The notes beneath the pieces were generated by a model. It did not search any database. It had not been told where the DNA came from and was given only the letters and a program-made list of their open reading frames with translations. 64,000 bases of DNA, taken from Rhodothermia bacterium (GTDB lineage Bacteria; Bacteroidota; Rhodothermia; Balneolales; Balneolaceae). Positions 48,529 through 64,000 of the stretch are shown here, piece by piece. Position 1 is the stretch's first letter; the number at the start of each line of letters is the position of its first letter. The stretch spans positions 124,001-188,000 of the forward strand of contig JAUICM010000007.1 of the NCBI GenBank assembly GCA_030427885.1, in the 5' to 3' direction. The position numbers and the translations under genes are program-made.

Positions 48529-51500
48529 TTAGTTCTCTCTTACGATTTCAATGAAAGGCTTTCTGAGTTCATCGGAAGGCCTTTCTAATAAAGATACTTC
48601 CTCAATCTTTTTCTCGTAGAGGTGCAGGATTGGCTTTTCAAAGGTAGCATCTGCAGAGATCTTATTCTTCAAACTCAGGATCTCATCCCAGTTAATGAAG
48701 GCCTTATTAACAAAAAGAACCACGCTCTCATTCTCATCAATCACAATCTTTGATTTGACATCGAATTCGCTTTCGATACGAATAGCATACAGAAGAGCTT
48801 TTTCCTTATCTGGAAATTCTCCTAACTGAAGCATGTATTCAAAATCAACATTGATCATCCTTGCACCACCTTCCGATTCACTGATATACAGCTGTCGGAT
48901 GGAAGTATTTGATAACATGTCGCTACGTTCTCTGTTTGCTTCATTCTTGCTTTCAAATGGCCCTAAACGAACTTTATAAAGCATATCTTTCTCATCCTGT
49001 GCTACAAATGATTTTAAACCAAACTGCTCATTGATCTGCTTGGAAAATAAATTAGCACGGATACGATTTGAAAAGGCTCCAAATTGAAGATGATACAGAT
49101 TCGATCCTGGCTGGTAATTACTGGCAACAGTTCCATAACATTGATTTAGTACAGAAGCATCAGAAGGTGTGTTACCGCTGATCTCCTTCATAGACTTAGC
49201 AGTAGAAGCCAGGCTCTGATATAAACCACTACGAATAGCATACAGTTGACGTGCGGAGTTATAGATCACATAAGTATCAACCGGAAGGGTAGCAGCAGCT
49301 TCATTAGCCTTTGCGTAACTGGAGTAAGCACCTAACTGGAAACCATACCGGCATTTATTCTTTTCAAGCTCTGTAACTGGAAGAGAGTATTCAATGGAAA
49401 TCCCACCACCGTCATTAGAAGTCTCGGACATCCCAACACCAGGAATGCCAGAGCTGCTTGACTGAGAAGAAGGCTCAGTGATCGGGTCTTCTGGTTCTTC
49501 CTCAATATCAAAACCCAAAGGAACTAATTCTAAATAAAGACCTTCAATAAAATCACCTTCAGGTATCGCTTTTACTTCAAATTCAATGCTTCCTGGATTT
49601 GATTTCACATTAAGCTTTTCCAAAGAAGAACTCTCTACAGTCAATTCGTATTTACCTGGAGGTATTTCATAGTCATAAAAAGAACCATCAGAGAATGTCC
49701 GGATCTCTTTCGTATAATCTGAACCAATAGAACGAAGATGCAATTTTAGTCCCCCGATGCCATTTTTTTGTTTACTAGCTATATTATATCGTTCTACCTG
49801 GCCTTCAATAACTCCCGACATATAGAATGGTATTTCAATTTTTTTAAAGGAATTAGGATCCGTAATGACAGAGAACTTATCTAAACCGGGAACCAGCATT
49901 GGGTTCTTAATAGAACCTTTGTTCAACTCAAGGTTATATCTGTAATATGGTTGCATTTGCGTGTAATAAATCACACCATTTTTCTCAATGCTGGAAGATC
50001 CGCCACGACCAATTCTTACAGAACCTTCACTGATCTCTTCATCAGTTGTATTGTCATAAATATCATCGTTGTTATTATCAACAAAAAGCCTAATAGCTGC
50101 AGCAGAGCGTCCAACCTGATCACGACTGGTAGCAATAAAATTGTGATAGTTTGTGTCGTAACCAATTGAACCTCTTACGTTCTGAGAAACGGAATAATTA
50201 ACATGAACGGAATTCACGGTAGTATTCGATCTTACTTTGTTCAGATCAATAATGAAATTAAACCTGAAAAGATTATATCCCCCAAGGAAATTTCGTCCGA
50301 AAGAAATCTGCATTCTACCATTTCTAAATAGATTTTTGGAAATCAGAAACTCAGTATTCTCAACTTGAGAAAAACTAGGTATATATCTCATTTGAGCCCG
50401 TAGGAATGCACCTCTGATTAATTTAGGAATGTTGCGACTATTGCTAAAATTGTAAGTAGCGGAAGATTCCAGATATGCAGAAGAATTTTGCCTGAATGGA
50501 ACATAACTATTAAATAGTCTTTCACTATATGCCAGGCGTAAATTAATTTTTGTAATACGGGTACTAAGATCAAAACGCAAAGTACTGTTCTGATTCGAAT
50601 CTCTGTACCGCGTAAAGGTTGAGGCTCTAATATTTAATGGAAGTCCCTTGATCTGAAAAGGGTAGTAAACACTAGCTATTAGCTGCTGGTCATTGCCTGA
50701 AGTATTATAAATATTAGTATTTTCAATGAAGTTAGTATAATCAAGTGAGAAACTTGCAGAATTTGGAAAGACAGTATTAACAGCAGCTCTGTAATATGCA
50801 TTGGTAATTGCTTCAACTGTCAATAAGTAATTTGTTAAGAGTCGGGCGGATAGAGAAGTTGCAAGTGAGGGAGCGTCTTTCTCCAATCCATTTTTATAAT
50901 ATTCTATACCTACTTTTGAAGTTAGCCAGTTAGTTAATCCGTAGGCAATATTCCCCTGTACTGCTAAATTCTTTTCAGTACTTCCTATAACAGGATTATT
51001 AAGTCTACCTGCGTTAAAGCGATAAGTATATTCTCCTTTCGGTACAAAAGTAAATGGAACCTGAACTCTGGAAGTCTGAGTTATTACCTGTCCGGTAGGT
51101 CCATATACTCGAAGGTCAATCTGTGAACTTCCATAAAAAAGCGGGGTAATGAATCTATAGTTTCCTATTTCATCAGATTCCGCAAAATCTATTAGAGCAT
51201 TGTTTAGGTATACTTCAACCTCTGAATTAGGAAGGGTATTGCCCTGAATTTCAAATTCATCGCAAAGTCTTCTCGGCTCAATAGGTTCATTTGTAATCCT
51301 GATACCTGTATATGGATTCGATAGGGCACCGTCAAGGGTTGTTTGACCAACAGTAACTTTTGATATGTACTTGCTGTCCCTGATAAAGTATCTCCATCTC
51401 AAATTATTTGTTGAATTTGTTAAACCATTATCAGATAAATTTCCATAGAGAGTACCTTGGAGATCGCCGCCTGCAACTTGTAAGCCAACTGAAGTGTTAT

Positions 51501-52143
51501 ATAAAAGTGACTCAGTATTTTGATTTTTATTTATAGTAATACCATAATCTGCAAATCCACCATCTAGCATCTTAACATTTCTTCCCTGGCTAAGTGGGTA
51601 GGATGGAGTTTCAAATCTGTTAGCATCTGCAATGCGTCGCCTTTGCTCTCTGATAGCTTTTGCGATGACAGGTAATTCAGTCATCGTTTCCAAATGGAGA
51701 GTAAGATTATTGAAATCAACATTGAATTCGAGATCAAATATCCTTTTCCACATTTCAGTTGGAAGATAATTATCTAAATCACCAAGAATAAAGTCATCTT
51801 GATTAAGCAGAATCTCCTTCTTACCAAAAATGATCTTCTGCTTGTTTAGATCAATAGAATATGGTGTTTGAGAGGTCGAAAATTTACCTGATGAGACTAG
51901 ACCTTCGGTGGAGACATCTACCTGAAAGACTTCGAGTAGTTCATTTACAGGAAGAAAGAATCTTTCATCCTTATAGTAGGAAACTAATACAGTATTAATA
52001 ATTCCACGATGTCGGAAAGAGAGGTATACCTCAACTTCATCCCCAGAGTCATTTTGTGCAAATATCGGAGTTGCACTGAAAGAGATAATGCATAGAACGA
52101 CAAGGGATAAATGTATTATTCTTTTTGTGCAATCAGTGATCAC
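48529..52143 (-). CDS. usher-like outer-membrane assembly protein with C-terminal SPOR repeats
   Basis: It starts at GTG (52143), overlapping the chaperone stop by 4 bases (GTGA), with signal peptide IIHLSLVVLCIISFSATPIFAQ. An N-terminal domain (~30-150) precedes a long strand-rich barrel. A usher-plug-like stretch (RRLCDEFEIQGNTLPNSEVEVYLNNALIDFA, then IDLRVYGPTGQ) is followed by FVPKGEYTYRFNAGRLN, as in FimD-type ushers. A carboxypeptidase-regulatory-like sandwich (~770-850, DGSFYDYEIPPGKYELTVE) and a Pro/Ser linker lead to two clear SPOR domains (~931-1002 and ~1016-1090) and a degenerate third (~1101-1177). The SPOR array is a feature I know of in no described usher. Usher assignment comes from pattern and operon. 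Confidence 0.72.
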   Translation of the reverse strand: MITDCTKRIIHLSLVVLCIISFSATPIFAQNDSGDEVEVYLSFRHRGIINTVLVSYYKDERFFLPVNELLEVFQVDVSTEGLVSSGKFSTSQTPYSIDLNKQKIIFGKKEILLNQDDFILGDLDNYLPTEMWKRIFDLEFNVDFNNLTLHLETMTELPVIAKAIREQRRRIADANRFETPSYPLSQGRNVKMLDGGFADYGITINKNQNTESLLYNTSVGLQVAGGDLQGTLYGNLSDNGLTNSTNNLRWRYFIRDSKYISKVTVGQTTLDGALSNPYTGIRITNEPIEPRRLCDEFEIQGNTLPNSEVEVYLNNALIDFAESDEIGNYRFITPLFYGSSQIDLRVYGPTGQVITQTSRVQVPFTFVPKGEYTYRFNAGRLNNPVIGSTEKNLAVQGNIAYGLTNWLTSKVGIEYYKNGLEKDAPSLATSLSARLLTNYLLTVEAITNAYYRAAVNTVFPNSASFSLDYTNFIENTNIYNTSGNDQQLIASVYYPFQIKGLPLNIRASTFTRYRDSNQNSTLRFDLSTRITKINLRLAYSERLFNSYVPFRQNSSAYLESSATYNFSNSRNIPKLIRGAFLRAQMRYIPSFSQVENTEFLISKNLFRNGRMQISFGRNFLGGYNLFRFNFIIDLNKVRSNTTVNSVHVNYSVSQNVRGSIGYDTNYHNFIATSRDQVGRSAAAIRLFVDNNNDDIYDNTTDEEISEGSVRIGRGGSSSIEKNGVIYYTQMQPYYRYNLELNKGSIKNPMLVPGLDKFSVITDPNSFKKIEIPFYMSGVIEGQVERYNIASKQKNGIGGLKLHLRSIGSDYTKEIRTFSDGSFYDYEIPPGKYELTVESSSLEKLNVKSNPGSIEFEVKAIPEGDFIEGLYLELVPLGFDIEEEPEDPITEPSSQSSSSGIPGVGMSETSNDGGGISIEYSLPVTELEKNKCRYGFQLGAYSSYAKANEAAATLPVDTYVIYNSARQLYAIRSGLYQSLASTAKSMKEISGNTPSDASVLNQCYGTVASNYQPGSNLYHLQFGAFSNRIRANLFSKQINEQFGLKSFVAQDEKDMLYKVRLGPFESKNEANRERSDMLSNTSIRQLYISESEGGARMINVDFEYMLQLGEFPDKEKALLYAIRIESEFDVKSKIVIDENESVVLFVNKAFINWDEILSLKNKISADATFEKPILHLYEKKIEEVSLLERPSDELRKPFIEIVREN

Positions 52144-52967
52144 CGCTTAGTATATGAGATAGATTGAGTTTTTCGATCCATCTGAATAAGATCAGATGCT
52201 TCGATATCACGTCTTACAGTTTCAAAGGCAACATTAACAGTATAATTTCCTGTAGGTAGATCTTTAGTATCAAAAGTTTGTCTATGTACACCATCAAAAT
52301 AGATAGTAGTTGACAGGTATTTTGTATCGATAGTCTCACCGGAAGCATTAACTAAACTTGTTGTTATTGTACCGAGAAAAGGTGAATTACCCGTTCTGCT
52401 ATATTCAACTAACACATTTAGTTTATCTGATTCTGAATCATCCAGTGTAATGTTATTTATATCAATACCCGTATTAACGTTTCCTTTTTTATAAAATAAG
52501 CCGGTAACCTGCTCCACAACCATGCCTAAGCGAGCAGAAACGGCACTATTATCACCTAATTCTGCAGGAGGACTTTGGGGGTTGGAAGCAGTTTTAATTC
52601 TTGTCCAGTAAGTACCATCTGGTGAGGTATTTGGAACAGCAATCCTTAAACGAACAATTTGACGTTGTCCAGGATTTAATACGAAGTTTTGAGGAAACGC
52701 TCTGACATAATCTGAAATCGAATGCTCTTGAGCTATAACTGAGTCATCTTCAACAAAAACACGCTCTCCATTGCTATCTGTAATTGTATAACTAAATACA
52801 AAATCGATAGAAACTTCCTGATTTTCGTTTGAATTATTGATGACCATATATGTTCCAAATCTTGAGTTATCTGAAACAAAAAGATTGGTGGGAGCGATAG
52901 TGATTTGACCAATTCCACTAATCGTAATAGCCAGACTAAATAAAACCGAAAGAGATAATTTTTTCAT
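52140..52967 (-). CDS. PapD-like periplasmic pilus chaperone
   Basis: A 275-residue protein with signal peptide MKKLSLSVLFSLAITISGIG and an immunoglobulin-like N-terminal domain: ITIAPTNLFVSDNSRFGTYMVINNSNENQEVSID, then FVLNPGQRQIVRLRIAVPN (the G1-strand donor region). A second sandwich domain (VEYSRTGNSPFLGTITTSLVN) follows. This matches the two-domain chaperones of chaperone-usher systems, and probably an archaic-type branch. It folds the subunit in the periplasm. It is 4 bases overlapped with the usher gene and 156 bases downstream of the pilin. Confidence 0.72.
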   Translation of the reverse strand: MKKLSLSVLFSLAITISGIGQITIAPTNLFVSDNSRFGTYMVINNSNENQEVSIDFVFSYTITDSNGERVFVEDDSVIAQEHSISDYVRAFPQNFVLNPGQRQIVRLRIAVPNTSPDGTYWTRIKTASNPQSPPAELGDNSAVSARLGMVVEQVTGLFYKKGNVNTGIDINNITLDDSESDKLNVLVEYSRTGNSPFLGTITTSLVNASGETIDTKYLSTTIYFDGVHRQTFDTKDLPTGNYTVNVAFETVRRDIEASDLIQMDRKTQSISYTKR

Positions 52968-53073
52968 ATCCGATGATTTATTGAATTTATAATAAATAAT
53001 AGTACTAATTGTAAATTACTTATACCATTATTTATTTAACGATTTATTTATGCTGGAGTGTTTTCTCTTTTAT

Positions 53074-53104
53074 AAAAAAAAAGCCCTGTCAAGTGACAAG
53101 GCTT
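53074..53104 (-). terminator. internal terminator between pilin and chaperone genes
   Basis: Read on the minus strand, AAGCCTTGTC and GACAGGGCTT pair with one mismatch across an ACTT loop and are followed by nine T (53074-53082). It would attenuate read-through, giving more subunit than chaperone and usher. Confidence 0.75.
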
Positions 53105-53122
53105 TTTATACCTATCAGTGAA

Positions 53123-53686
53123 TTATTGATAGTAAACAGTCAGTGTAATAGTACCAGTGTAAAGACCCATGTGTACAGTTTCATCGATAGTTTCTAATGA
53201 ACCACCAACATAAACCCATGCATTGTTTGTACTAGCTGCAGCACTTGTAGAACCACTTAAAGTAGCGGTTGAAGTACCACCAGTAAAATCCTGAGCATTT
53301 GTACCAGTTTCTGGGTCATTAACAGTTTCAGTATAAGTAGCTTCAAGCGCATCCACTTCGATGTCTTGAACAGCACCACCACCTAAAGCAACAGTAACAG
53401 CTCCAGTAGAAGTAAGGTCGGTTGCACTAAGCTCCATAAGGAAGTCAGCAGAATTCGCAAGAGAAGTAAGATTAAATGAACCGGTATTAGCTACATTTGC
53501 AGTACTTACAGCAACAGTAGGGTCGTCGCCATCAGTAAGGGTTCCAAAGTCAAGGTCATTACCGGCAGCTACAGAAGCGGAAGCGGTAACCTGAGCACTA
53601 GTTGTAATAGATGTTTGTGCAAATGCAGAAGCAGATACTACTGCGATAATTGCAAAAACAGATAAGAGAGATTTAAGAGTTTTCAT
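53123..53686 (-). CDS. DUF4402-like fibre subunit (pilin-like)
   Basis: A secreted 187-residue protein: signal peptide MKTLKSLLSVFAIIAVVSASAFAQ, an N-terminal strand SITTSAQVTASASVAAGNDLDFG, an Ala/Thr/Gly-rich middle and the C-terminal YTGTITLTVYYQ. This is the DUF4402 pattern (LDFG start, GxYxGTxxVxV end), found in fibre subunits handled by chaperones and ushers. No cysteine. The alternating N-terminal strand fits a donor strand. It heads the three-gene operon. Confidence 0.75.
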   Translation of the reverse strand: MKTLKSLLSVFAIIAVVSASAFAQTSITTSAQVTASASVAAGNDLDFGTLTDGDDPTVAVSTANVANTGSFNLTSLANSADFLMELSATDLTSTGAVTVALGGGAVQDIEVDALEATYTETVNDPETGTNAQDFTGGTSTATLSGSTSAAASTNNAWVYVGGSLETIDETVHMGLYTGTITLTVYYQ

Positions 53687-53704
53687 AATTTAATTTGTCG
53701 CGGC

Positions 53705-53779
53705 CGAAAATAAATGAAACGCTTTGTTTGAATTTAATTGTAACAGAGTGTCGGGATTTTCGAAATTAAATGAAACGCT
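53705..53779. repeat. direct repeat at pilin/prophage junction
   Basis: CGAAA(A/T)TAAATGAAACGCT occurs twice, at 53705-53723 and 53761-53779, with one mismatch in 19. Copy 2 overlaps the stop of the phage gene; copy 1 lies in the pilin leader. On the minus strand each copy contains TA(T/A)TTTCG, similar to the Bacteroidota -7 element. It may be an attachment-site remnant or tandem promoters for the pilin. Confidence 0.6.
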
Positions 53780-55613
53780 ATCTTTCGATGTAGTTGAAGC
53801 TTTTATTGGGTATAGTCACATCGTTATTAAGCTCAATTAAGTGAGCCTGTATTGAGTCGTTTATCTTATCATATACTATATAATACGGATTGTAATAAAC
53901 ACCGTCTTCATACAGTGAGTTAGAAAGATTGATATCAACTTGCTCACGATCTAATTTAAGCTTCAATCCGTTAGCAGGAAGACTCAAATAGCTCAACATT
54001 ATATCAGCTTTCCTATCTGATATGGTCTGAGTTGTAGCGCCTGAAGTATCCCAATTATACGCCTGTTGCCAATAGGTATCTAAAAGGAACTGAATACAAT
54101 CTTCATAATTATGACCGTAATAATCGCAAATGCCTAAATCGAATTCTGAAGCATTTGATTTAACCTCTTTAAAATAATTAATAGACGGTACAAGGCCATT
54201 ATCAGTAGAAACAAGAGTTATATTTAATTCATTGTATTCGAAACTGTCAAATTCGTCTATTGAATCACTGTCAGGATCAAAGCTTGTATTCGTAGTCCTT
54301 ATATATAGTTCCAAATAACCAATAAAACCGGCAGGAATAACAACATCTTCATTGATCAAAAGATTGTGATTTTGTGGCCCTGGTATGGTGTTGATGTAAG
54401 CATTGAAGTAACCTGAAGTATTTTCAACTGCTAAACCGGCCCCTGTATTTTTAATCCAGTAATCGTCACCGCCTTCAATATCAATTAGTTTTATTTCAGC
54501 TACAGGAAGAATAAAATTATCATCATCAACCCCCGTATCATGAATATCAACATTAATATCTAAATGAATGATTTGACCGTCCAATAATAGCCTTGAACAA
54601 AGCTGATATAGTACACAAGGCCCCTCAGACTTTAACCCCGCATCAGGCCCTATTGAAACAGGTTCAACAACACCAGATTGAAGATCCCAATTATCAGGTT
54701 CAGAGTCGCCCGCATTCCAGGATGAAAAAGAACTATTCACAACACCACCAGATAAGCTTTCTTTGAAACGGTCAACTATGTTAACCAGTCCTGAACTCTT
54801 TATAAAAGTATCAAAGCTATTCTTTGCAATCTTACCATCGAGATTAACAACCGGATCAAATAGATTAGTATAAGTCTGTTCTGGTATGCTAGCGTAGGTT
54901 TTCCCGTAAATATTTCGCTCTGCATTCTTCAGGTTTATTTGTTGGATCATCCAAACACCGTTTGCCTGAAATAAATGAAGCTCAAACCGGTTTAAAACCG
55001 CCTCAAGAACATTATAATAAGTACGCCTCTTTTCATTTGAAAGAACAGCATCAACGGGTATTCTGGTAATATTTGGCAAATATGCACCGGTTGCCTGATA
55101 GTGCTTAAGATCAAAGAATAATTCAAAAGGGATACCGTGACCGGTCTTTTCAAATACTTCAGTGAAAAACTGATTAAGAGTCTTCAAACCAGTCTTATCA
55201 TAATCAATTGCTTTCAAATTTGTAAGGCCGTCAAAGGCTAAAATTGGTACTTCAGGATGAAACCCGTCTTTTGGGGTTTCGTTCAGTTCAGTTAATAGAT
55301 TAAGCCTGTTTTTTAACACACCATTAAGCCGGATATCTAACCTGAATTGTGTTGAAATAGCATTCTTTAATTTATCATATAGGTACCCGTTTTCATCAAG
55401 TATAGTAAAGTGTTCCTGTGTTGGGTGAATATACTTTTTAGGATCAAGGCGCGAAGATCCCTGAATCTGGTTTAAACCCTTTCCTTTTATAATTAGTAAT
55501 TCATTTTCATTACCAGCGCCCGGATCATCGTTTTCATCATATATGGAGTAAGTCCAGTCACCTTGCCAGTAAGAAAATGTTTTGGTTAATATTGGGGTAA
55601 CAGGAAAAGCCAT
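53778..55613 (-). CDS. phage tail protein downstream of tape measure
   Basis: A 611-residue protein I cannot name by motif. Its place directly after the tape measure (overlap of one base) and its start FPVTPILTKTFSYWQGDWTYSIYDENDD fit a distal-tail or tail-tip component. The N-terminal half holds NRFELHLFQANGVWMIQQINLKN; the C-terminal half has mixed beta-rich segments. It is the last phage gene at this end; its stop overlaps the junction repeat. Confidence 0.6.
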   Translation of the reverse strand: MAFPVTPILTKTFSYWQGDWTYSIYDENDDPGAGNENELLIIKGKGLNQIQGSSRLDPKKYIHPTQEHFTILDENGYLYDKLKNAISTQFRLDIRLNGVLKNRLNLLTELNETPKDGFHPEVPILAFDGLTNLKAIDYDKTGLKTLNQFFTEVFEKTGHGIPFELFFDLKHYQATGAYLPNITRIPVDAVLSNEKRRTYYNVLEAVLNRFELHLFQANGVWMIQQINLKNAERNIYGKTYASIPEQTYTNLFDPVVNLDGKIAKNSFDTFIKSSGLVNIVDRFKESLSGGVVNSSFSSWNAGDSEPDNWDLQSGVVEPVSIGPDAGLKSEGPCVLYQLCSRLLLDGQIIHLDINVDIHDTGVDDDNFILPVAEIKLIDIEGGDDYWIKNTGAGLAVENTSGYFNAYINTIPGPQNHNLLINEDVVIPAGFIGYLELYIRTTNTSFDPDSDSIDEFDSFEYNELNITLVSTDNGLVPSINYFKEVKSNASEFDLGICDYYGHNYEDCIQFLLDTYWQQAYNWDTSGATTQTISDRKADIMLSYLSLPANGLKLKLDREQVDINLSNSLYEDGVYYNPYYIVYDKINDSIQAHLIELNNDVTIPNKSFNYIER

Positions 55614-58033
55614 TAGTTACCGATCACCTCTTCAATCTCATTTAGTTCATCAAAGGTATCTTTCAGGGCGCGGGCGTTTGGTGTGAAATTGATATTAGAT
55701 CGTACATTTACAGTAATCTGAGGTACTCCCACATCTTTAGGCCCTTGTGAATTCTCTTCCTCTATAGGCGTTATTCGAACCTCTTCTTTACCTGAAGGAT
55801 TGTCACCAACCAGGATCATTTGCGGGCCGTCTGTCATAAAATGACCACCTTCAGCAAATGCAGGTATCTGATCAATAGCCGCTGAACTTAAACGTTGTGC
55901 CGCCGCTACTAAGATCGGAGCCGCTATCAAAGCCGCTGGGCCGGAAGCCCCGGCGGTCTGTAATGCGTTACGAATGAAAAGACCGGTAATCTCAGCCGCA
56001 ATTGATTTTAGAACGCCTTTTGTTGCCTCTTTAACTGATTTAGCGTATTTGATCTGATTTGCTATGCCTTGACCAATAGCTGACATCGCCTGTATTCTGT
56101 TTTGTTCCACCTGAATTGCTGTCTGAACAGCGTTAATCTGATCATTGATTGCATTTATATATTCTTGGCTTGTACTCTCTCTTTTGGCAGCTTCCAAGTC
56201 CATTAAATGAGCTTGGAGTTCGTACAAATTCATAGCCGCTAATTCACGTTGGCTATACATCTCAACCATTGGATCTGAAGAAAGGTCAATATCTTCAGGC
56301 GCGTTATTATCTTCTATAACAGAATGTTCAGGATCTTCCTCACTTGGCTTAAAGCTTTCGTCTCTCAATTCCCGTTGAAGATCCCGCTTCTTTTCAAGGG
56401 CCTCAACTTCGCGTTCTAATTGTGCAATACGGGCTTCATCTTCAGCATCAGGGGCCTGTAAATCCTTTAATGTCTCTAACTCTTCATTCAGCTTTTTAAG
56501 CTCTTCTGAATAGGTTTTTACGACCTCAACCGTCTTTTCTTCTTGGTTAGTTTTCTCTTCCGTTTCTTTTGCTGATTCAGCGGCTTCAATACGATATTTA
56601 GAAAGTAATTCATTTACTCTTTCTTGGCTTAAACCTGTTGCTAAAAGAAATTCTTCCGCCTTCTCAATCTCTTCATTTAGAATATGTTGAGATCGGGCAA
56701 CATCAGCGGCCTGAATGCTATATTGAGAATAACCGGCAACAGTTGATTTATTGATCCTATTTTTTGCCTCTTCTAGTGATATGTTCTCCTTTAATGAAAC
56801 GCCAAAAACCCTGGTTAATTCGTGGAGTTCCTTAAGGCTCATTTCATATTTACCCCGCTCAATTCCTACATCAGCGATAGTCTTTCCGTATTTTTTTTCT
56901 AACTCTGTGATCGAAGTTATAAGCCTATCCTTTTGCTTTTCTGCACTTTGTTGCGCCTGTAAGGATTTAGTATAGGCATCCTGAACTGGTTGAAGGGTCT
57001 TAGCTGTTAATATCTGTTCAGCTTTTTGAATATTTACTTCCTTAAGAACTTCAAGTAATTCATCGTTAGAAACCTTTTCAAGATCTATGTTTTCCAACAA
57101 TTCGGGGTACTGTTCATTAAGCTGATTTAACAGCTCAATTCTACGTTCATTTTCAGGATTTAGAAATGTGATTTGATTGATCAATAAATGAATTTCGTCT
57201 TGTTGATCCTGAAGCTGTTGAACTTCCGTTTTTTGGTATCCTAGCAGCCTGTCAGTAACATCTAAAAAGCTTTCCCAAACCGGCAACATTTGAACCTTCA
57301 TTTTCAGGATCACGGCCCCGATCTTTTCTTGTGTGTCACCTAAACGATTGTTGAATTGCTGAAGCTTACCAGAATCAGTTTGGGCCATAGCTTCAGCAAC
57401 CCCGCCTAATTGCCCTTCAAGTATCTGCATAAGCATACTTTGAGCCTTAACTAATTGGTTGCTTTCCTGGAACTTCTTGATTTGCTCTTCCTGTTCCTCT
57501 GAAAAGGTGATACCAACCCGGCGCAATTGGGAAAGGTTACGGGCCGGATCTTCAAAGGCTTTACCGTATTGTAAAATAGCACTTTCAGCGCTACCAAATA
57601 ACTCACCGGTATCAAGGGCTAATTTAACCACGCCTTCGTAAATCTCACCTTGAACACTCTTAAAAGTTAACAACTTGCTTTGCAAGCTCTGAATGTTTTC
57701 ATCCCCAAACGTGGTAAGCTGTTGAAGACCTGAAGCCTGGGCTTTTAATTGCTCATAGGTGAATCCGGCGGCTTGACCTGTGGTCTTAACCAGTTGCCTT
57801 AACTTTGCGTCTTGCTGTTCCTGAGTGATAGCAAGTTGTTCCGATTCAGCTATTAACTGTTTTAGGCTTGAAAGTGCATTACTGAACTGTTGAGCTATAA
57901 AGTTACCAACAGCGGTATTTTTTATCTGATCAAAGGTGGAAGAAACCCGTTCAGACTGAAGCTGTGTTTTATCCAACACGGCTTCAGCCTGTTTACCATC
58001 AATGGTAAGTTTTATTTTGATTTCGTTAGCCAT
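55613..58033 (-). CDS. phage tail tape-measure protein
   Basis: An 806-residue protein rich in coiled-coil heptads (for example KTYSEELKKLNEELETLKDLQ, LEREVEALEKKRDLQRELRDES) with a hydrophobic C-terminal segment (~690-745, TGLFIRNALQTAGASGPAALIAAPILVAAA). The N-terminus resembles tape-measure starts (KIKLTIDGKQAEAVLDKTQ). Tape-measure proteins set tail length and assist DNA passage. Size implies a tail of ordinary siphovirus length. It follows the tail-chaperone frameshift product with a TAATG junction. Confidence 0.85.
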   Translation of the reverse strand: MANEIKIKLTIDGKQAEAVLDKTQLQSERVSSTFDQIKNTAVGNFIAQQFSNALSSLKQLIAESEQLAITQEQQDAKLRQLVKTTGQAAGFTYEQLKAQASGLQQLTTFGDENIQSLQSKLLTFKSVQGEIYEGVVKLALDTGELFGSAESAILQYGKAFEDPARNLSQLRRVGITFSEEQEEQIKKFQESNQLVKAQSMLMQILEGQLGGVAEAMAQTDSGKLQQFNNRLGDTQEKIGAVILKMKVQMLPVWESFLDVTDRLLGYQKTEVQQLQDQQDEIHLLINQITFLNPENERRIELLNQLNEQYPELLENIDLEKVSNDELLEVLKEVNIQKAEQILTAKTLQPVQDAYTKSLQAQQSAEKQKDRLITSITELEKKYGKTIADVGIERGKYEMSLKELHELTRVFGVSLKENISLEEAKNRINKSTVAGYSQYSIQAADVARSQHILNEEIEKAEEFLLATGLSQERVNELLSKYRIEAAESAKETEEKTNQEEKTVEVVKTYSEELKKLNEELETLKDLQAPDAEDEARIAQLEREVEALEKKRDLQRELRDESFKPSEEDPEHSVIEDNNAPEDIDLSSDPMVEMYSQRELAAMNLYELQAHLMDLEAAKRESTSQEYINAINDQINAVQTAIQVEQNRIQAMSAIGQGIANQIKYAKSVKEATKGVLKSIAAEITGLFIRNALQTAGASGPAALIAAPILVAAAQRLSSAAIDQIPAFAEGGHFMTDGPQMILVGDNPSGKEEVRITPIEEENSQGPKDVGVPQITVNVRSNINFTPNARALKDTFDELNEIEEVIGN

Positions 58034-58604
58034 TACTTAGATCTGAATAGTATTGAGTTCAACCAACTCTGTTCTAATACACGGCTCCAGGGCCATTCAT
58101 AATAAGCGTCATTATAAAGTTCAGGGCGGCCCATTGTGGCAAGTGCTATTGTTTGTTTATGGTTGAAATCATCCGGGATCAGCGAAGGAAAAGGTTCGTG
58201 TTCCTTTCCCTTGTATCTCTTCTTTACGGCTGATTTGTATTGGCTTTGCTTTTCTTCGAATTTTTGGTTGATAACTCTTGATCTTTTACGGTCGTTATCA
58301 TATTCAAAAAAAAAGCTCTAATTCCGGCTTGTGCCTGTTGATAATTGCTTAAGTCGTCTTCTACATCAACTTGCTGTAATAGGTGGTTATCGTCTTTAAC
58401 TGAGGCCGTTAAGAACCGTTTAAAATCCCTGGGCGATAATGTGAATATATCATCCAGATCAATAGGTAATTCTTCGCCCTTATTCGTATCAACTCCAAAC
58501 ACAGTAGCCAAAAGCATAAAGAATTGACTTCGATTAAACAGGCTTGGCGGCCTGATTTCAAATTGTTCCTGGTTTCCTTGTATAGTTAGGCTTATTGATT
58601 TCAT
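58033..58604 (-). CDS. tail assembly chaperone, long form by -1 frameshift
   Basis: This is the 190-residue product predicted if ribosomes slip -1 on the nine-U run at 58306-58314. The first 99 residues are shared with the short form; then FEYDNDRKRSRVINQKFEEK ... SWLNSILFRSK is read. The -1 frame stays open for 91 codons and ends in TAA overlapping the tape-measure ATG. Tail phages of many families use exactly this G/GT arrangement. Total length with one base re-read is divisible by three. Confidence 0.75.
58224..58604 (-). CDS. tail assembly chaperone, short form
   Basis: The zero-frame product is 126 residues, beginning MKSISLTIQGNQEQFEIRPP. Its position just before the tape-measure gene fits a tail-assembly chaperone (the G role in lambda), with weak sequence features otherwise. 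It overlaps the preceding gene by four bases (ATGA at 58601-58604). Confidence 0.7.
   Translation of the reverse strand: MKSISLTIQGNQEQFEIRPPSLFNRSQFFMLLATVFGVDTNKGEELPIDLDDIFTLSPRDFKRFLTASVKDDNHLLQQVDVEDDLSNYQQAQAGIRAFFLNMITTVKDQELSTKNSKKSKANTNQP
58306..58314 (-). other. programmed -1 frameshift slippery site
   Basis: On the coding strand the bases are GCT TTT TTT TTG, so the heptamer U UUU UUU lies in the right phase for tandem -1 slippage. A run of nine U could also cause assembly or sequencing error; raw reads would settle it. Confidence 0.75.
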
Positions 58605-59113
58605 AGTACATTAAATCCTAGTTGTTTGATTTCATTTTCTGAAAGATCGGTTACAGGCCCTTTGCTTTTAAAATTCAGGGTAAAACTCCCGTAATGAATC
58701 CCGTCCTTTATATTCGGTAATTTGATTTGATTACCTTCTAATACAACCTCGATCGGCGGCCAGGTCGCTTCATTTTCTCCGGGCTTTGGAATAAAGAATA
58801 CCTGGTTAGTAATGAACTGGTTTACTAACCAAACAGGGTCATAATCTACGTTATGAACTTCGTCATACTCACCCTGATCAAGCGCTGAAGCACTGTCAGA
58901 TACATAGTGTTTAAAATGCTCCCAACCTGCACTAAAAAACAATCTGGCACCTCTGAATTGCTGATAAATTACATCGTCAATCAATTCTGTTTCCTTCTTA
59001 ATCAACCTCGCGTCCTTATCCAGATTTTCAAGGTAAAACGAATGATAAGTTGTAACCGGCCCATCGCTTACAACCTTAAATTGGATATATTCTATGTATT
59101 CGGAGGTGTTCAT
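58601..59113 (-). CDS. hypothetical phage tail-region protein
   Basis: A 170-residue protein I do not recognise. It lies just before the tail chaperone, where major tail or tail-completion proteins often sit. The sequence has mixed strands (YIQFKVVSDGPVTTYHSFYLEN; ITNQVFFIPKPGENEATWPP) and no TM or signal. Four-base overlaps on both sides show tight phage packing. Confidence 0.7.
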   Translation of the reverse strand: MNTSEYIEYIQFKVVSDGPVTTYHSFYLENLDKDARLIKKETELIDDVIYQQFRGARLFFSAGWEHFKHYVSDSASALDQGEYDEVHNVDYDPVWLVNQFITNQVFFIPKPGENEATWPPIEVVLEGNQIKLPNIKDGIHYGSFTLNFKSKGPVTDLSENEIKQLGFNVL

Positions 59114-60696
59114 TTAATGATACCTAACGCCTTCAAAAATCGTAGTTTTAAATTCGCAACAACATCATAACCGTCATTATTAAAGTGAACCAAGTCCGTT
59201 GGATAATCATCTAATAAGCTTGCGGGGCATCGGTTGGCGGCAATTTCTGTAAGATCATCAGCAGTAGGCACAATACCAGCATCTTCTAAGCCATAGTTAA
59301 CTAAATACTCTCTCAGTATAATAGCCCTCATTCCAAAGCTATCAATCAAAGCGGCTTCTAATGCGTCCGTAGTCCTTGAATGTGTGCAAATAATCAAATA
59401 GTTATTATGAGGCAACATATTAACAGCCTTCCAAAGTCTGTCAATTAAGGTCTGATGATTAGCATCAGAAACATAAGCCCAACCACCCTCAAAATGACCG
59501 TTTTGACCTATAAAAAATATATGAGGATACTTAAGATATTCTTTAGCGTGCTTTGTTTGAATAATGCTCCCTGAAATAATATCACGTGATGTTCCCGCAA
59601 TAGAACGCGCAAAATAATATGTTCCCCCTGCATAACTTATAGTTCCTTCAATACCTTGAATAGTAACCGGGTTAATATTGTCATTTCCGTTTGCATTCTT
59701 CCAAAAATCAACGAGTTCACCCCCTTCAGTTGATTCAATGGTAATTGCAGTGGTTCCAGTACCCGCCGGGATGGTAAACCCTGCGGCAATCCTCATTGGT
59801 ATAGATCCCATTCTAGCTAAAGCCTCTAACTCAGTATTTCCGCTCCAACCACAATTAATATATTCCCAGTCATCAGGCAAAACACTAGCTAATGCATTGC
59901 TCCTGAACGTAAGGCTATCACCAACACCAATAATTTTTTTATTCTTAAGTTGCTCAACCTCTTTATAAGTTGACAGGCTATATAAGCCATAAAAAAAGCA
60001 CTCTTTATAAAGTTCGTTTACAGCGATTCCCTGAGTAAGAAAGTCTAAGCCTATATAGCTTATACCTTCGGGTATTGAAAACATCCAAAGATCACTTTCA
60101 ATTTGAACCAGTGTTCCTTCAGAATCAAAATTAGGAATACCTGGATCACCCGTATAATAAACAAGAAATTCAGGGGCAATCGAAGACCTAAGAAAGTATA
60201 ATTCACCGGCATTCACTTCTATTTGGCATCCGTCATAGGTTGGAGAAGCCTTAACCTCACCCGTTGCAATACTATATACCGTTTCAGGCGAAATTATATC
60301 AAATAAATTATAGGGAAGACCCCTTATAAAACTATTTGAAAACGGGTCTCCATAAGCGGTTAATGATTCATTTATAGATGCTGTTACTTTGGTTAAGGTA
60401 GGCACATTATACCCCAGGGCCACCCAATGACCAACAGCGGGGCTGTAATAGAGGTGTGTTAAAGAATTGCCGTCCAACTCTATTGGATCACCTTCTGAAT
60501 CTAAAAAATTATTAAACACCCCGCCCGCTGATGTGATATAGAAAATATCTGTTTGTGTTGGGAGAACCCCGGGATTTGTACTTGTTACAGCTTTACCTTT
60601 AAAGGTTCCTTCAAATTCAGGAATCTGAGCTAATGCAGCCGCTAAAGCGTCTTTAAGGGTTTCAATCGAAGACTCTTTTACAAGTGAAATATTCAT
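59110..60696 (-). CDS. tail protein with SGNH/GDSL hydrolase domain
   Basis: A 528-residue protein. Residues ~1-240 are adapter-like; then IIGVGDSLTFRSNALA begins an SGNH hydrolase (block I Ser in GDSL), NCGWSGNTELEALARMGS and FFIGQNGHFEGGW follow, and DLVHFNNDGYDVVA supplies the block V Asp-His. SGNH enzymes remove acetyl or ester groups. On a phage tail fibre this would be a receptor-modifying or host-polysaccharide deacetylating function (inference). Confidence 0.8.
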   Translation of the reverse strand: MNISLVKESSIETLKDALAAALAQIPEFEGTFKGKAVTSTNPGVLPTQTDIFYITSAGGVFNNFLDSEGDPIELDGNSLTHLYYSPAVGHWVALGYNVPTLTKVTASINESLTAYGDPFSNSFIRGLPYNLFDIISPETVYSIATGEVKASPTYDGCQIEVNAGELYFLRSSIAPEFLVYYTGDPGIPNFDSEGTLVQIESDLWMFSIPEGISYIGLDFLTQGIAVNELYKECFFYGLYSLSTYKEVEQLKNKKIIGVGDSLTFRSNALASVLPDDWEYINCGWSGNTELEALARMGSIPMRIAAGFTIPAGTGTTAITIESTEGGELVDFWKNANGNDNINPVTIQGIEGTISYAGGTYYFARSIAGTSRDIISGSIIQTKHAKEYLKYPHIFFIGQNGHFEGGWAYVSDANHQTLIDRLWKAVNMLPHNNYLIICTHSRTTDALEAALIDSFGMRAIILREYLVNYGLEDAGIVPTADDLTEIAANRCPASLLDDYPTDLVHFNNDGYDVVANLKLRFLKALGIIK

Positions 60697-61272
60697 CTAA
60701 TAAACCAGTGTTACAGTTTCTATTTCATAATCAATACCACCAATTGTCCAGGTAAAAACAGATTCTTCATCAATTTCAGCGGGCGGTATCGCGTGAACAA
60801 CAGCACCATCTTCTGAGATAGAAGAGGCTATAAAACCGTAAAGTAATTCACCGTTAGCCTGAACCTGATAACCTTTACCAATAGTCACAGTGGGAGATGC
60901 TAACGCGGATTCAGTTGTAAAAGTAACCTCATACCCTTGTAAACCGTCTGAATCTTTAACCTCTTGGCCAATACTAAAATTTGTTGCCCGTTCCCAAAGC
61001 AGGTAATGGGTTCCAGTCATGAAGGCGTAAATAGTTGCTCCTTCATTTTCCCAGGATCTTAAAGTTTCTAACGCTTCCTGATCAAAGATCTGAGCGGTAA
61101 CGGTGTAAACTTTCTTAACCGTCCGTTGCTGTTTTTGTTGAACCGTTTTTTTTATGGGTTTTTCCGAGAACAAAAACCGTTTATGATCAAAAAGTTGAGG
61201 CTCACAAACAGTGAAATCCTCAACTTTCTGAAAAACTAATCGGTCTGCTATGAAGGAAGTAAACACACCCAT
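60697..61272 (-). CDS. hypothetical phage protein
   Basis: A 191-residue protein with no family that I recognise. It contains a Lys/Gln-rich stretch (KKTVQQKQQRTVKKVYTVTA) and beta-rich C-terminal half (YQVQANGELLYGFIASSISEDG). Its stop abuts the SGNH gene start. Context suggests a structural or adapter tail component. Confidence 0.65.
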   Translation of the reverse strand: MGVFTSFIADRLVFQKVEDFTVCEPQLFDHKRFLFSEKPIKKTVQQKQQRTVKKVYTVTAQIFDQEALETLRSWENEGATIYAFMTGTHYLLWERATNFSIGQEVKDSDGLQGYEVTFTTESALASPTVTIGKGYQVQANGELLYGFIASSISEDGAVVHAIPPAEIDEESVFTWTIGGIDYEIETVTLVY

Positions 61273-61283
61273 ATAACCGCCAA

Positions 61284-61712
61284 TTAAACCGCGTCAGTAA
61301 ATACGGTTTCATCTTCGTAAACCGCCTGAGAACGATCTACATCGTATTCCTGGGTAACGGTGTAGGAAATCAATTCACCAGTACTGTTAAAATGTTCTTC
61401 AACGTTTACAATTTTTGGCTTAGTAGTGAAAGACTTAGCTGAATCAAGTAACGTAGCCTTGATATACACACCGGTATAATTTGCCTCAAACCCTTCCAGA
61501 AGCGCTTTAACAGCCGCGTCCAGATCATGAAGTTCAAGGGTTACCGTGACATGCTTTTTTGCAGTTGCCTTTTGGCCTCCGTTCACATTCGATTTAGTAG
61601 GTACAGCGTTAAATGTGATTGCATCTTCTTTAAAAAGATTCACATCAACCAACGCCTGATCATCATCACCAAGTTCAAGTTTTTCGATTAAGTCAGAAGT
61701 ATAGCGGGGCAT
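61284..61712 (-). CDS. hypothetical phage structural protein
   Basis: A 142-residue, beta-strand-rich protein (KHVTVTLELHDLDAAVKALLEGFEANYTG) with no TM. It might be a tail-tube or adapter protein, which would fit its place and size. No motif supports this. Confidence 0.65.
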   Translation of the reverse strand: MPRYTSDLIEKLELGDDDQALVDVNLFKEDAITFNAVPTKSNVNGGQKATAKKHVTVTLELHDLDAAVKALLEGFEANYTGVYIKATLLDSAKSFTTKPKIVNVEEHFNSTGELISYTVTQEYDVDRSQAVYEDETVFTDAV

Positions 61713-61730
61713 TGTATTACCTCAATATTT

Positions 61731-61937
61731 TTAGTTTAGAAATAGTGCAACTATCGCGATCGCAATAGTGAATGTTGTTGCGCAAGCCGCTAACAACTGA
61801 AAAATGGTTGGGCGCTTTGCAACCTCAACCTTCAAATCGTTTACAGACTCCATACCACGGAATAAAGCCGACATTTGCCGTTGAAGGCTCTCGAACTTTT
61901 CATCCAGGTATTTTTTTTCGTCATCTGTTAAAGCCAT
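61731..61937 (-). CDS. small coiled-coil plus TM protein, XhlA/holin-like
   Basis: A 68-residue protein: an N-terminal amphipathic helix (DDEKKYLDEKFESLQRQMSALFRG) then a C-terminal TM segment (LLAACATTFTIAIAIVALFL). This layout is typical of XhlA-like hemolysin/holin-associated proteins. It sits next to other lysis-type genes, so a role in host lysis is likely. Its start overlaps the preceding stop by one base. Confidence 0.65.
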   Translation of the reverse strand: MALTDDEKKYLDEKFESLQRQMSALFRGMESVNDLKVEVAKRPTIFQLLAACATTFTIAIAIVALFLN

Positions 61938-62305
61938 TACAGCACCCCGATACTTTGAAGAAATTCAATGATCGGCTGAAGGCTTACCAGGAGCTTTGCA
62001 AGCGTACCATTTACCGCCGCCTGAACAAACAAATAACCAAAGGCAAGACCTGCACCAATACGAACCCATTTAATCGTTGTATCAGACAGGTTCAGATCCT
62101 GAACAGCCTTACCAACCTGAAATGCTTCACGTTCTGAAGTAACCTTTCCTTTGATCTCAGAAAGCGGCTTTCCTATAATTGGCACAAAAGACACAGCCAC
62201 ATCTTTTACAATACCGAGCGTTTGCCCGGTTTTATTGCGCCCGGAAAGCGTACGGCCCAGGGCTGTTTTCTTAAAAAATGGTCGGTTAAATAGCTTTTTA
62301 AACAT
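61937..62305 (-). CDS. small membrane protein in lysis module
   Basis: I choose the ATG at 62305 (MFKKLFNRPFFKKTALG); a TTG at 62335 would add 10 residues. The 122-residue product is basic at the N-terminus, with a hydrophobic segment near the C-terminus (IGAGLAFGYLFVQAAVNG) and a second weak one. It is sandwiched between the DUF5675 protein and the XhlA-like gene, so a holin or membrane-spanning role is plausible but unproven. Confidence 0.6.
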   Translation of the reverse strand: MFKKLFNRPFFKKTALGRTLSGRNKTGQTLGIVKDVAVSFVPIIGKPLSEIKGKVTSEREAFQVGKAVQDLNLSDTTIKWVRIGAGLAFGYLFVQAAVNGTLAKLLVSLQPIIEFLQSIGVL

Positions 62306-62753
62306 GGTAGAAAACCTGTTTTTCGGGGTGGTCAAAAATAGTTATTTGTATCTCTGATCCTTCAGGAATCAGGCTTAGTAATTCTTCCAAAGTGTCTTTT
62401 GAACGGGTGATATCGTATTCATTATCATTGTTCAAATGGGTAAACTTTTCACCTACCCCGATACACCCTTCAGACTCTTTGAAATAGTTAAGTACGTGCA
62501 TTAAGATCATGTCACGATCAGGCACGTTTTGTATATGCAAATGCTTTCCGTAGGTATCTGAATAGCGTATCTCAACAGGATAAGTACCTGTTGGTATACA
62601 GCTAATATCTCTCTGGTTCAGTATCCAGCTTAATTCCAGGGATACGCACTTAAACACCTCTTTTCCATTAACAACCAATACAGTATTATCAAGTGTTTGA
62701 ACGCCCGTATCCCGGAACCGTTGCAACCAGATATGAACCAGATCGCGGGGCAT
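62298..62753 (-). CDS. DUF5675-family protein, likely lysis-related
   Basis: A 151-residue protein with the DUF5675 pattern: TLDNTVLVVNGKEVFKCVSLELSW, ISCIPTGTYPVEIRYSDTYGKHLHI and MILMHVLNYFKESEGCIGVG. Members are phage-borne, and the family resembles L,D-transpeptidase-like or peptidoglycan-acting proteins. Activity is not established. It probably takes part in host-cell lysis along with the two small membrane proteins after it. Confidence 0.75.
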   Translation of the reverse strand: MPRDLVHIWLQRFRDTGVQTLDNTVLVVNGKEVFKCVSLELSWILNQRDISCIPTGTYPVEIRYSDTYGKHLHIQNVPDRDMILMHVLNYFKESEGCIGVGEKFTHLNNDNEYDITRSKDTLEELLSLIPEGSEIQITIFDHPEKQVFYHV

Positions 62754-62754
62754 A

Positions 62755-63138
62755 TTATTCTGCGTCTTCAGTTAAGATCGAAACGATCTTTTTTGAAGTT
62801 GCTTGGCCTATTCCGTCCAATGCGGAAAAGTCGTTATTATGCTCTTCAGCATATTCTACAACCTTTTCCATTGAATCGAGACCGGCGGCAATCAGATCAT
62901 CTTTGCCAGGAATGGAATCAAAAGGATCTAGCCCGAAAGAGTCACCAACTTTTACAGCAGTGTAACCATATGCTTTAGCTAGTGCTTTTGCGTGAGTTTC
63001 CGGCAGGGCTTCACTCTCCCCCTCAAAAAATTTCACATCATACCCCTTGCTTTTCTTTTCGCCGGGAATATTGGTTAATGCTCTCTTTCCAGTGAAAGCA
63101 ACTTTTGATTTTACAATATGAGTTTTTTTAGCTGACAT
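62755..63138 (-). CDS. small phage protein with C-terminal helix-hairpin-helix-like motif
   Basis: A 127-residue protein beginning MSAKKTHIVKSKVAFTGKRA. The middle resembles a beta-rich phage structural piece and the C-terminus FSALDGIGQATSKKIVSIL looks like a helix-hairpin-helix, usually a DNA-binding element. Only one base separates its stop from the DUF5675 start. Function unknown. Confidence 0.65.
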   Translation of the reverse strand: MSAKKTHIVKSKVAFTGKRALTNIPGEKKSKGYDVKFFEGESEALPETHAKALAKAYGYTAVKVGDSFGLDPFDSIPGKDDLIAAGLDSMEKVVEYAEEHNNDFSALDGIGQATSKKIVSILTEDAE

Positions 63139-63170
63139 AGTTCTAAGTTTAAAATGAATGGTTATTAGTG

Positions 63171-63240
63171 GCGGGTAGCGGGTTCGAACCGCTGACCTCC
63201 GGGTTATGAATCCGGCGCTCTGACCGCTGAGCTAACCCGC
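63171..63240 (-). tRNA. tRNA with CAT anticodon (Met or Ile2-like)
   Basis: On the minus strand a cloverleaf folds: acceptor GCGGGT/ACCCGC (6 bp), D-arm GCTC/GAGC, anticodon arm with loop TTCATAA (CAT) and stem CCGGA/CCCGG (one A-C mismatch next to the loop), variable loop AGGTC, and T-arm AGCGG TTCGAAC CCGCT. A seventh acceptor pair would be U-C. CCA is not encoded. It lies 5 bases after a phage CDS, so it is phage-borne. Elongator Met, initiator and Ile2 cannot be told apart. Confidence 0.85.
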
Positions 63241-63245
63241 AATAT

Positions 63246-63617
63246 TTAACCCGCCCGATGAAATTCAGATCGGGTTAAGGTTCCTTTACTGTTTAATTTT
63301 GGCGGCCTTTTAACTCTCATACCTTCATAACACAGGTATCTATACTTTAAAAAGGCGTTGGGCGTAATGATTATACCTGACAACAGAACATCAGTAAATA
63401 CAATAGTTTCATTAACATCAGCCTGAAGGCTATATATAAGAGCGTTAAGCCCTGCATCAGAAATACTCACAGTTACGGGTGCATTAATTGCTAAAGTATC
63501 ACTTGATACAATTACCAAAGTGCCGTCTGGTTCACTTGCCTTTGTCGGGCCTGGGATCACCAGAATTACTGCGAAAGCAAGGATTAAAAAATGATATAGT
63601 CGGGAAATAGATTTCAT
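63246..63617 (-). CDS. secreted hypothetical protein in phage region
   Basis: A 123-residue protein with a clear signal peptide (LYHFLILAFAVILVIPGPTKASE) and a mature domain of strands (TLVIVSSDTLAINAPVTVSISDAG). It is not a family I recognise. Position between a terminator and the tRNA makes it part of the phage transcript; an exported phage protein may alter the host surface, but this is speculative. Confidence 0.6.
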   Translation of the reverse strand: MKSISRLYHFLILAFAVILVIPGPTKASEPDGTLVIVSSDTLAINAPVTVSISDAGLNALIYSLQADVNETIVFTDVLLSGIIITPNAFLKYRYLCYEGMRVKRPPKLNSKGTLTRSEFHRAG

Positions 63618-63662
63618 AATTCAGTTGTTTGTTTATAGTTGGGGTTATAGTGGTTTAAAACC

Positions 63663-63687
63663 CTCTCCCTGAGTCAATCAGGGAGAG
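63663..63687 (-). terminator. hairpin terminator downstream of the partial edge gene
   Basis: A perfect 10-bp stem CTCTCCCTGA/TCAGGGAGAG (63663-63672 with 63678-63687) with a 5-base loop. On the minus strand it is followed by GGGTTTTAAACC, a short T-run only. It separates the edge gene from the secreted protein. Confidence 0.65.
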
Positions 63688-63735
63688 AGTGAATCAAAAA
63701 CCACATGTCACCATGCAATTGGCCGAAGCCAATTT

Positions 63736-63999
63736 CTATCCAAGCCGTAGACCTGCCACGCGCTCAACACACTTGTTAGACAACCTTACAAGGTCAATAT
63801 CAAGCTCAGTATCAGTAACAATGAAGTTTCCATCCTCTCGGGTTTTGCTTACATCAAGACCGATAGTTGTTGCTAGAGCTAAATCTCGCTTACTGAGCTT
63901 TCCTACATAAACAGAAGAGCAGTCATCCGTTGCGCCAACAGTCTCAGAAAACGGGAGAATATCTTCGCTTTCGTCACTATTCCAACCAGAGCTAAAAAT
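63736..63999 (-). CDS. phage-region protein, 5' end outside window
   Basis: An open minus-strand frame with no start in the window runs in from the right edge for 87 codons to TAG at 63736-63738. Residues include NSDESEDILPFSETVGATDD, VYVGKLSKRDLALATTIGLD and ELDIDLVRLSNKCVERVAGL. I do not recognise it. Being on the same strand as the phage genes, it is probably structural. Confidence 0.6.
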   Translation of the reverse strand: MFSSGWNSDESEDILPFSETVGATDDCSSVYVGKLSKRDLALATTIGLDVSKTREDGNFIVTDTELDIDLVRLSNKCVERVAGLRLG

Positions 64000-64000
64000 C

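Follow-up and report, generated by a model that had tools for sequence, protein, structure and literature searches.

The 64,000-nucleotide window analysed here (C13:124001-188000, part of a Balneolaceae genome of 4.15 Mb in 13 contigs) contains three pilus genes, all on the minus strand and adjoining pyruvate dehydrogenase genes, which encode a pilin-like subunit, a putative chaperone and an usher that ends in SPOR repeats. The usher gene (48529-52143) starts with GTG, overlaps the stop of the chaperone gene by 4 nucleotides and specifies 1204 amino acids (aa), identified by Pfam SPOR matches, an AlphaFold2 model and structure matches; the genome holds one usher of this class. All features of the operon given below are likewise on the minus strand.

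Pilus genes and the fold of the usher

The gene for the major pilin-like subunit (53123-53686; 187 aa, with a signal peptide) was assigned to the DUF4402/SCPU-like group from its reading frame, its position and its relatives. In the Pfam search it matched only SCPU, at E = 0.66; pilin homologues occupy the equivalent position in related loci, and DUF4402 pilins are present in proteobacterial sister loci. The next gene (52140-52967; 275 aa) encodes a predicted PapD-like periplasmic chaperone (P0002), for which the Pfam scan gave no PapD_N match and the family profile (A8) found no PDB chain by sequence. However, its homologue in locus L139, which lies beside a DUF4402 pilin, reaches 24.1 bits against PapD_N (cut-off 23), and the two chaperones match each other at 6e-8 in phmmer, in a small sequence set. 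Distant homologues of the usher adjoin DUF4402 pilins and chaperones, one of the latter above the PapD_N cut-off, and gene context accordingly assigns the Balneolaceae set to the chaperone-usher pathway. The first-pass annotation of this stretch had described a DUF4402-like pilin, a PapD-like chaperone and a 1204-residue usher; the reading frames are exactly as described there and the usher holds, whereas the chaperone is recognised indirectly, through its homologue in L139.

Sequence searches did not place the usher in the established family. The Pfam Usher profile (PF00577) gave no match at E ≤ 1 in the window usher (P0001), nor at E ≤ 0.1 in five distant relatives, and the usher family profile retrieved no usher from the PDB sequences; direct sequence links of either the usher or the chaperone to PDB chains were sought and none was found. 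A TcfC E-set (plug-like) match was present below threshold, and distant homologues in Alpha- and Gammaproteobacteria are mostly 21-27% identical.

The AlphaFold2 model, built from 35 homologues, has a mean predicted local distance difference test score (pLDDT) of 79, with values of about 80-90 across most of the barrel and the C-terminal domains. FimD or PapC chains fill the first 19 rows of the Foldseek ranking (E down to 5e-30), and in VIA-align the first 15 rows are all ushers (Z 18-23), followed by TonB-dependent receptors and LptD as the best non-usher rows (Z 16.8 and below). This ranking rules out a barrel of a different family, such as an unrelated porin, which the first-pass annotation had named among the results that would refute its reading. 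The modelled features comprise an N-terminal periplasmic domain (51679-52053; residues ~31-155, limits approximate), a beta-barrel with an inserted plug (50155-51585; residues ~187-663, from Pfam and the model, the E-set/TcfC-like plug lying near 51070-51228) and C-terminal beta-sandwich domains (49519-50142; residues ~668-875, from the model and a CarboxypepD_reg-like match). The PapC/FimD translocation pores 2vqi and 3ohn align to positions 165-633 of the model, and FimD and PapC are the top matches, with large coverage, for this combination of a plugged pore with periplasmic domains at both ends. As modelled, the window usher is a FimD/PapC-type pore, and it is a member of a divergent class, outside the PF00577 sequence family, that is placed by fold and gene context. 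Its identification as an usher is therefore retained on the strength of these two lines, although the profile search for the Usher family was negative.

The SPOR tail

Pfam SPOR (PF05036) matches the usher at E = 4.5e-18 (65.8 bits against a cut-off of 21), with two stretches above threshold, and the predicted structure has a SPOR-like fold in a third, in agreement with the two clear and one degenerate SPOR domains noted at first pass. Repeat 1 (49138-49353; residues 931-1002) is matched by Pfam, carries the cysteines C931 and C1002 and is modelled with low confidence. Repeat 2 (48904-49101; residues ~1015-1080) is the best Pfam match and aligns with the solved SPOR structures of RlpA and of a sporulation (CwlC-type) amidase. 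Repeat 3 (48604-48846; residues ~1100-1180) is degenerate in sequence, with no Pfam match, and adopts a beta-alpha-beta-beta-alpha-beta arrangement in the model, at a pLDDT of mostly 75-94. The C-terminal domains of FimD and PapC are periplasmic; since the tail lies after these domains, it would, by analogy, face the wall from the periplasmic side, a placement implied by the first-pass reading of an usher tied to peptidoglycan.

In RlpA, the contacts to stripped glycan are Q270, the A273/F274 strand and the basic patch R302/R309/R311 (PMC6895207). The equivalent residues of the window usher are Q936, Y940 and R971 in repeat 1 and Q1020, F1024, K1057 and R1059 in repeat 2, and only the Q and F positions are kept in repeat 3. 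Across the 28 SPOR-tailed Balneolaceae ushers, Q936 is conserved in 26, an aromatic residue at 940 in 27 and R971 in 20, and the cysteine pair is present in 17-18. SPOR was found in every tail-bearing homologue scanned, with seven of eight divergent tails above the Pfam cut-off. A chance match or a gene-calling artefact was considered as the source of the SPOR signal and is ruled out by its conservation across the 28 loci.

Motor-linked relatives and the setting of the operon

Relatives of the window genome bear names of the family Balneolaceae (Gracilimonas, Balneola, Fodinibius/Aliifodinibius and Rhodohalobacter). Usher homologues were detected in 59 of the 92 genomes of this family, and gene neighbourhoods were examined at 41 loci, the window locus among them. 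The usher-SPOR combination recurs at 28 of these (type A), a conserved co-occurrence of the kind for which the first-pass annotation had proposed a survey; here the usher is 1123-1549 aa long and has no motor-module genes next to it. In the other 13 loci (type B), the usher is ~1000 aa long, has no SPOR and, where examined, ends in TPR. In 12 of the 13, it is followed by a ~620-aa fusion of FliF (RBM3), a transmembrane segment and FliG, a TPR lipoprotein, a MotA of 264-265 aa and a MotB of ~500-630 aa that combines a plug, an OmpA domain and triple SPOR domains; the thirteenth (L063, also recorded as L104) has a FliG fragment followed by a damaged frame.

The C-terminal half of the fusion, in which the middle and C-terminal domains of FliG are present, matches solved FliG in the PDB at E 5e-17. 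For the N-terminal half, a predicted model with a mean pLDDT of only 66 matches the FliF RBM3/collar ring, and a profile of this half also hits part of frames of FliF size (~550 aa) in relatives. The MotA belongs to the flagellar type (NCBIfam MotP/PomA/MotA; PDB MotA at E 6e-25), and in the MotB, which has a peptidoglycan-binding OmpA domain, the membrane residue Asp33 is invariant (12/12).

The MotB-borne and usher-borne tails are colinear homologues, the cysteine pair included: the pair is present in 12 of 12 MotB tails and the equivalent of Q936 in 11 of 12. In the tail tree, the MotB-borne modules all form one clade (99% in the SH-like approximate likelihood ratio test, SH-aLRT), apart from the usher-borne lineages, whereas in the tree of usher cores the two forms interchange seven times, at least six of these being forced by the starred branches. 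With at least six exchanges, the mutual exclusion of SPOR tail and motor is not a single inherited event. The interchange on the usher tree, together with the separate tail clades, suggests that the two forms are exchangeable 3' cassettes of one operon. Repeated derivation of the usher tails from MotB, through deletions that fuse usher to MotB, was also considered; six independent fusions are not supported, given that the MotB copies are a single clade, and a swap of the operon's 3' part fits better. In one locus (L076 12065-13711), a separate 548-aa protein combines a triple-SPOR-like tail with an outer-membrane-type N-terminal part, near an usher that has a SPOR tail of its own.

The window genome has no FliM or FliN (no PF01052 match) and no canonical FliG, its sole FliG_M match being a 621-codon open frame on contig C8 that resembles the FliF-FliG fusion. 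From the lack of FliM/FliN, the bacterium is judged, on its gene content, to have no standard flagellum. The C8 frame belongs to a stand-alone motor operon (L080 4131-9187, G000) that encodes the FliF-FliG-like protein (609 aa), a 367-aa protein, a TPR lipoprotein, a MotA-like protein and a MotB-like protein without SPOR. FliG-like frames of ~610-650 aa outside the usher locus also occur in other Balneolaceae, group g19 included.

Outside the family, SPOR-tailed ushers are found in families f30, f3 and f7 of the phylum, and family f2, which belongs to the same order, has a TPR-tailed usher followed by this motor module, in which the MotB lacks SPOR. Genes for distant ushers and chaperones lie in operons with ExbB and ExbD in family f12, a member of the same class: ExbB adjoins nine of 11 usher loci, and the other two lie on short or incomplete stretches. 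Besides ExbB and two ExbD genes, these f12 operons (L240, L243-L252) encode a TPR lipoprotein and a membrane protein of 310-364 aa; they are an association of ushers with an ion-driven motor distinct from the FliF-FliG/MotAB one. Alphaproteobacterial ushers of this class (L131, L133, L148, L150 and L157) end in AMIN domains, three of which score above the Pfam cut-off. The spread of SPOR, AMIN, FliF-FliG/MotAB and ExbBD associations across groups suggests that ushers of this class probably came to be associated more than once with ion motors or tails that bind the wall.

Within the window, the spacer between pilin and chaperone (z = -5.2) holds a strong stem-loop with a 13-bp stem, followed by a T-run (53078-53107), as would be expected if pilin is made in excess; the element is likely a partial terminator with that function. 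Upstream, a Mu-like prophage of ~28 kb occupies 53690-64000 and continues to ~C13:205750 (L193 1-18250), with transposase, terminase, tape-measure and tail genes. It is inserted at most ~50 bases upstream of the pilin start and splits the pilus operon; for its exact ends, a 5-bp repeat is an insecure candidate. Three more pilin-like genes lie beyond it, as do the conserved genes upstream in the operon, so that the native promoter of the pilin-chaperone-usher genes has probably been displaced. The conserved upstream genes (L194 802-14469; L044 1668-4567) encode single-span membrane proteins (~139 and ~195 aa), a DUF4900/bactofilin-like protein of ~490 aa, a small domain protein of 131 aa and repeat proteins of very large size whose C-terminal tail is sorting-like.

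Proposed wall anchoring, its alternatives and known systems

The usual view of ushers is that they are free-standing pores of the outer membrane that have neither a link to the wall nor ion-motor drive, and we know of no chaperone-usher pilus that is driven by an ion motor. On the gene and domain data, we consider it reasonably probable that the usher of the window works without a motor and is held to peptidoglycan by its own tail, as an alternative to the motor-linked form of its relatives. As in known systems, chaperone-held pilin would pass through the usher; SPOR repeats 1 and 2 would pin the usher to peptidoglycan by binding glycan stripped of its peptides, and a pulling force on the pilus would pass to the wall through the pinned usher. 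In the motor-linked form that this static one would replace, the stator, with its OmpA and SPOR domains, would make the wall contact, and TPR domains would link the usher to an ion-driven rotor.

That the usher is tied to peptidoglycan, as the first-pass annotation proposed, appears the best reading given the retained Q and aromatic residues in repeats 1 and 2 and the unrelated, peptidoglycan-binding AMIN domains at the equivalent place of alphaproteobacterial ushers, and a clamp is further supported by the distribution of the tail (28/28 motor-less Balneolaceae ushers, 0/13 of the other type). Several observations weigh against it. Repeat 3 has lost the basic contact residue and repeat 1 is poorly modelled; the Q/R residues of SPOR2 are replaced in several divergent tails, so that glycan binding need not hold for every tail; and the SPOR-less MotB of family f2 indicates that SPOR is not universal in the system.

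Alternatively, the tail could be an address label, whereby SPOR recruits the usher to denuded glycan at the septum or new pole and pili are assembled at division sites, the role that the first-pass annotation had raised. As a class, SPOR domains localise to denuded glycan at the septum (PMC6895207), and the ligand residues are kept in repeats 1 and 2. However, a MotB-like stator that is already OmpA-anchored carries this module too, which suits load-bearing better, and the AMIN tails of other ushers fit either reading. Because the SPOR module is exchangeable with the copy borne by the MotB of an in-operon flagellar-type motor, an anchor of the machine is likelier than a septal address label. 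SPOR-directed placement at division sites is possible, and an address label as the main role of the tail is rather doubtful.

A docking piece for another machine, such as the FliF-FliG/MotAB operon on C8, rather than mainly a wall binder, seems improbable. The window genome does have that operon, without FliM/FliN, and motor and usher are co-encoded in sister operons, but the C8 MotB is without SPOR and many SPOR-usher genomes have no separate motor, eight of them (G003, G008, G021, G026, G031, G035, G041 and G042) no FliG at all. The operon is therefore not needed for the SPOR form, and a C8-type motor acting in trans is ruled out as an obligatory partner of SPOR ushers. Least plausible is a functionless remnant of recombination with a motor-type operon: the two arrangements were exchanged repeatedly, but the usher-borne tails form lineages of their own (99% SH-aLRT) and keep Q936 in 26 of 28, and hence are old and constrained.

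More broadly, there is about an even chance that these loci represent an undescribed chaperone-usher class in two interchangeable forms, one motor-driven and one static and SPOR-clamped, with the window as the static form. In the motor-driven form, TPR domains would transmit the action of a FliF-FliG rotor and MotAB stator (elsewhere ExbBD) to the usher or pilus; we hold motor coupling of the type B ushers, judged from their gene neighbours, to be evenly balanced between true and false. In openly licensed papers, we found no description of an usher with SPOR, AMIN or MotA/FliG, or of DUF4402 with an usher, consistent with the first-pass statement that no usher with a SPOR extension is described, although absence of precedent is not proof; recent surveys of stators and of lost flagella mention neither ushers nor Balneolaceae. 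If an usher carries a peptidoglycan clamp of its own, this would account for the way in which the envelope bears pilus force, and it could confine pili to places where glycan is bare. A rotating or ion-powered usher pilus, if true, would be a new kind of machine, as the motor-linked relatives may be. The larger comparative result is that one module shifts between usher and flagellar-type stator within an operon and that ExbBD provides a second motor type, which together make motorisation of chaperone-usher pili directly testable. The system also offers a non-flagellar setting where a minimal FliF-FliG/MotAB set may work, and so bears on the recruitment of rotary motors.

Among known systems, the 5:2 ion-driven machines (ExbBD-TonB, TolQR, AglRQS, GldLM) are similar in combining an inner-membrane ion motor with an outer-membrane machine, ExbB/ExbD lying beside the f12 ushers, but none is described with an usher, and a review of this machine class leaves ushers unmentioned (PMC9389320). 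The likeness to the flagellar rotor and stator (FliF, FliG, MotA, MotB) is confined to type B, which has FliF RBM3 and FliG folds in one chain, a flagellar-type MotA and a MotB with plug, invariant Asp and OmpA; type B differs in the fusion of FliF, cut to RBM3, with FliG, in the triple SPOR at the end of MotB, and in having chaperone-usher pilus genes in the operon and no rod, hook or filament genes. With the SPOR wall proteins (FtsN, DamX, RlpA, CwlC), the window usher shares the PF05036 fold and, in repeats 1 and 2, most glycan-contact positions, but its three tandem repeats are carried on an outer-membrane usher and no catalytic or divisome domain is present. The chaperone-usher pathway (FimD/FimC of type 1 pili, PapC/PapD of P pili) is matched in the gene order of pilin, putative chaperone and usher, the overlap of the latter two genes and the barrel with plug and N- and C-terminal domains, with FimD and PapC as the best structural matches. 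The window locus departs from it in the missing PF00577 match, the DUF4402/SCPU-like pilins and the added C-terminal SPOR repeats, whereas its relatives depart from it in the TPR tail and the motor genes.

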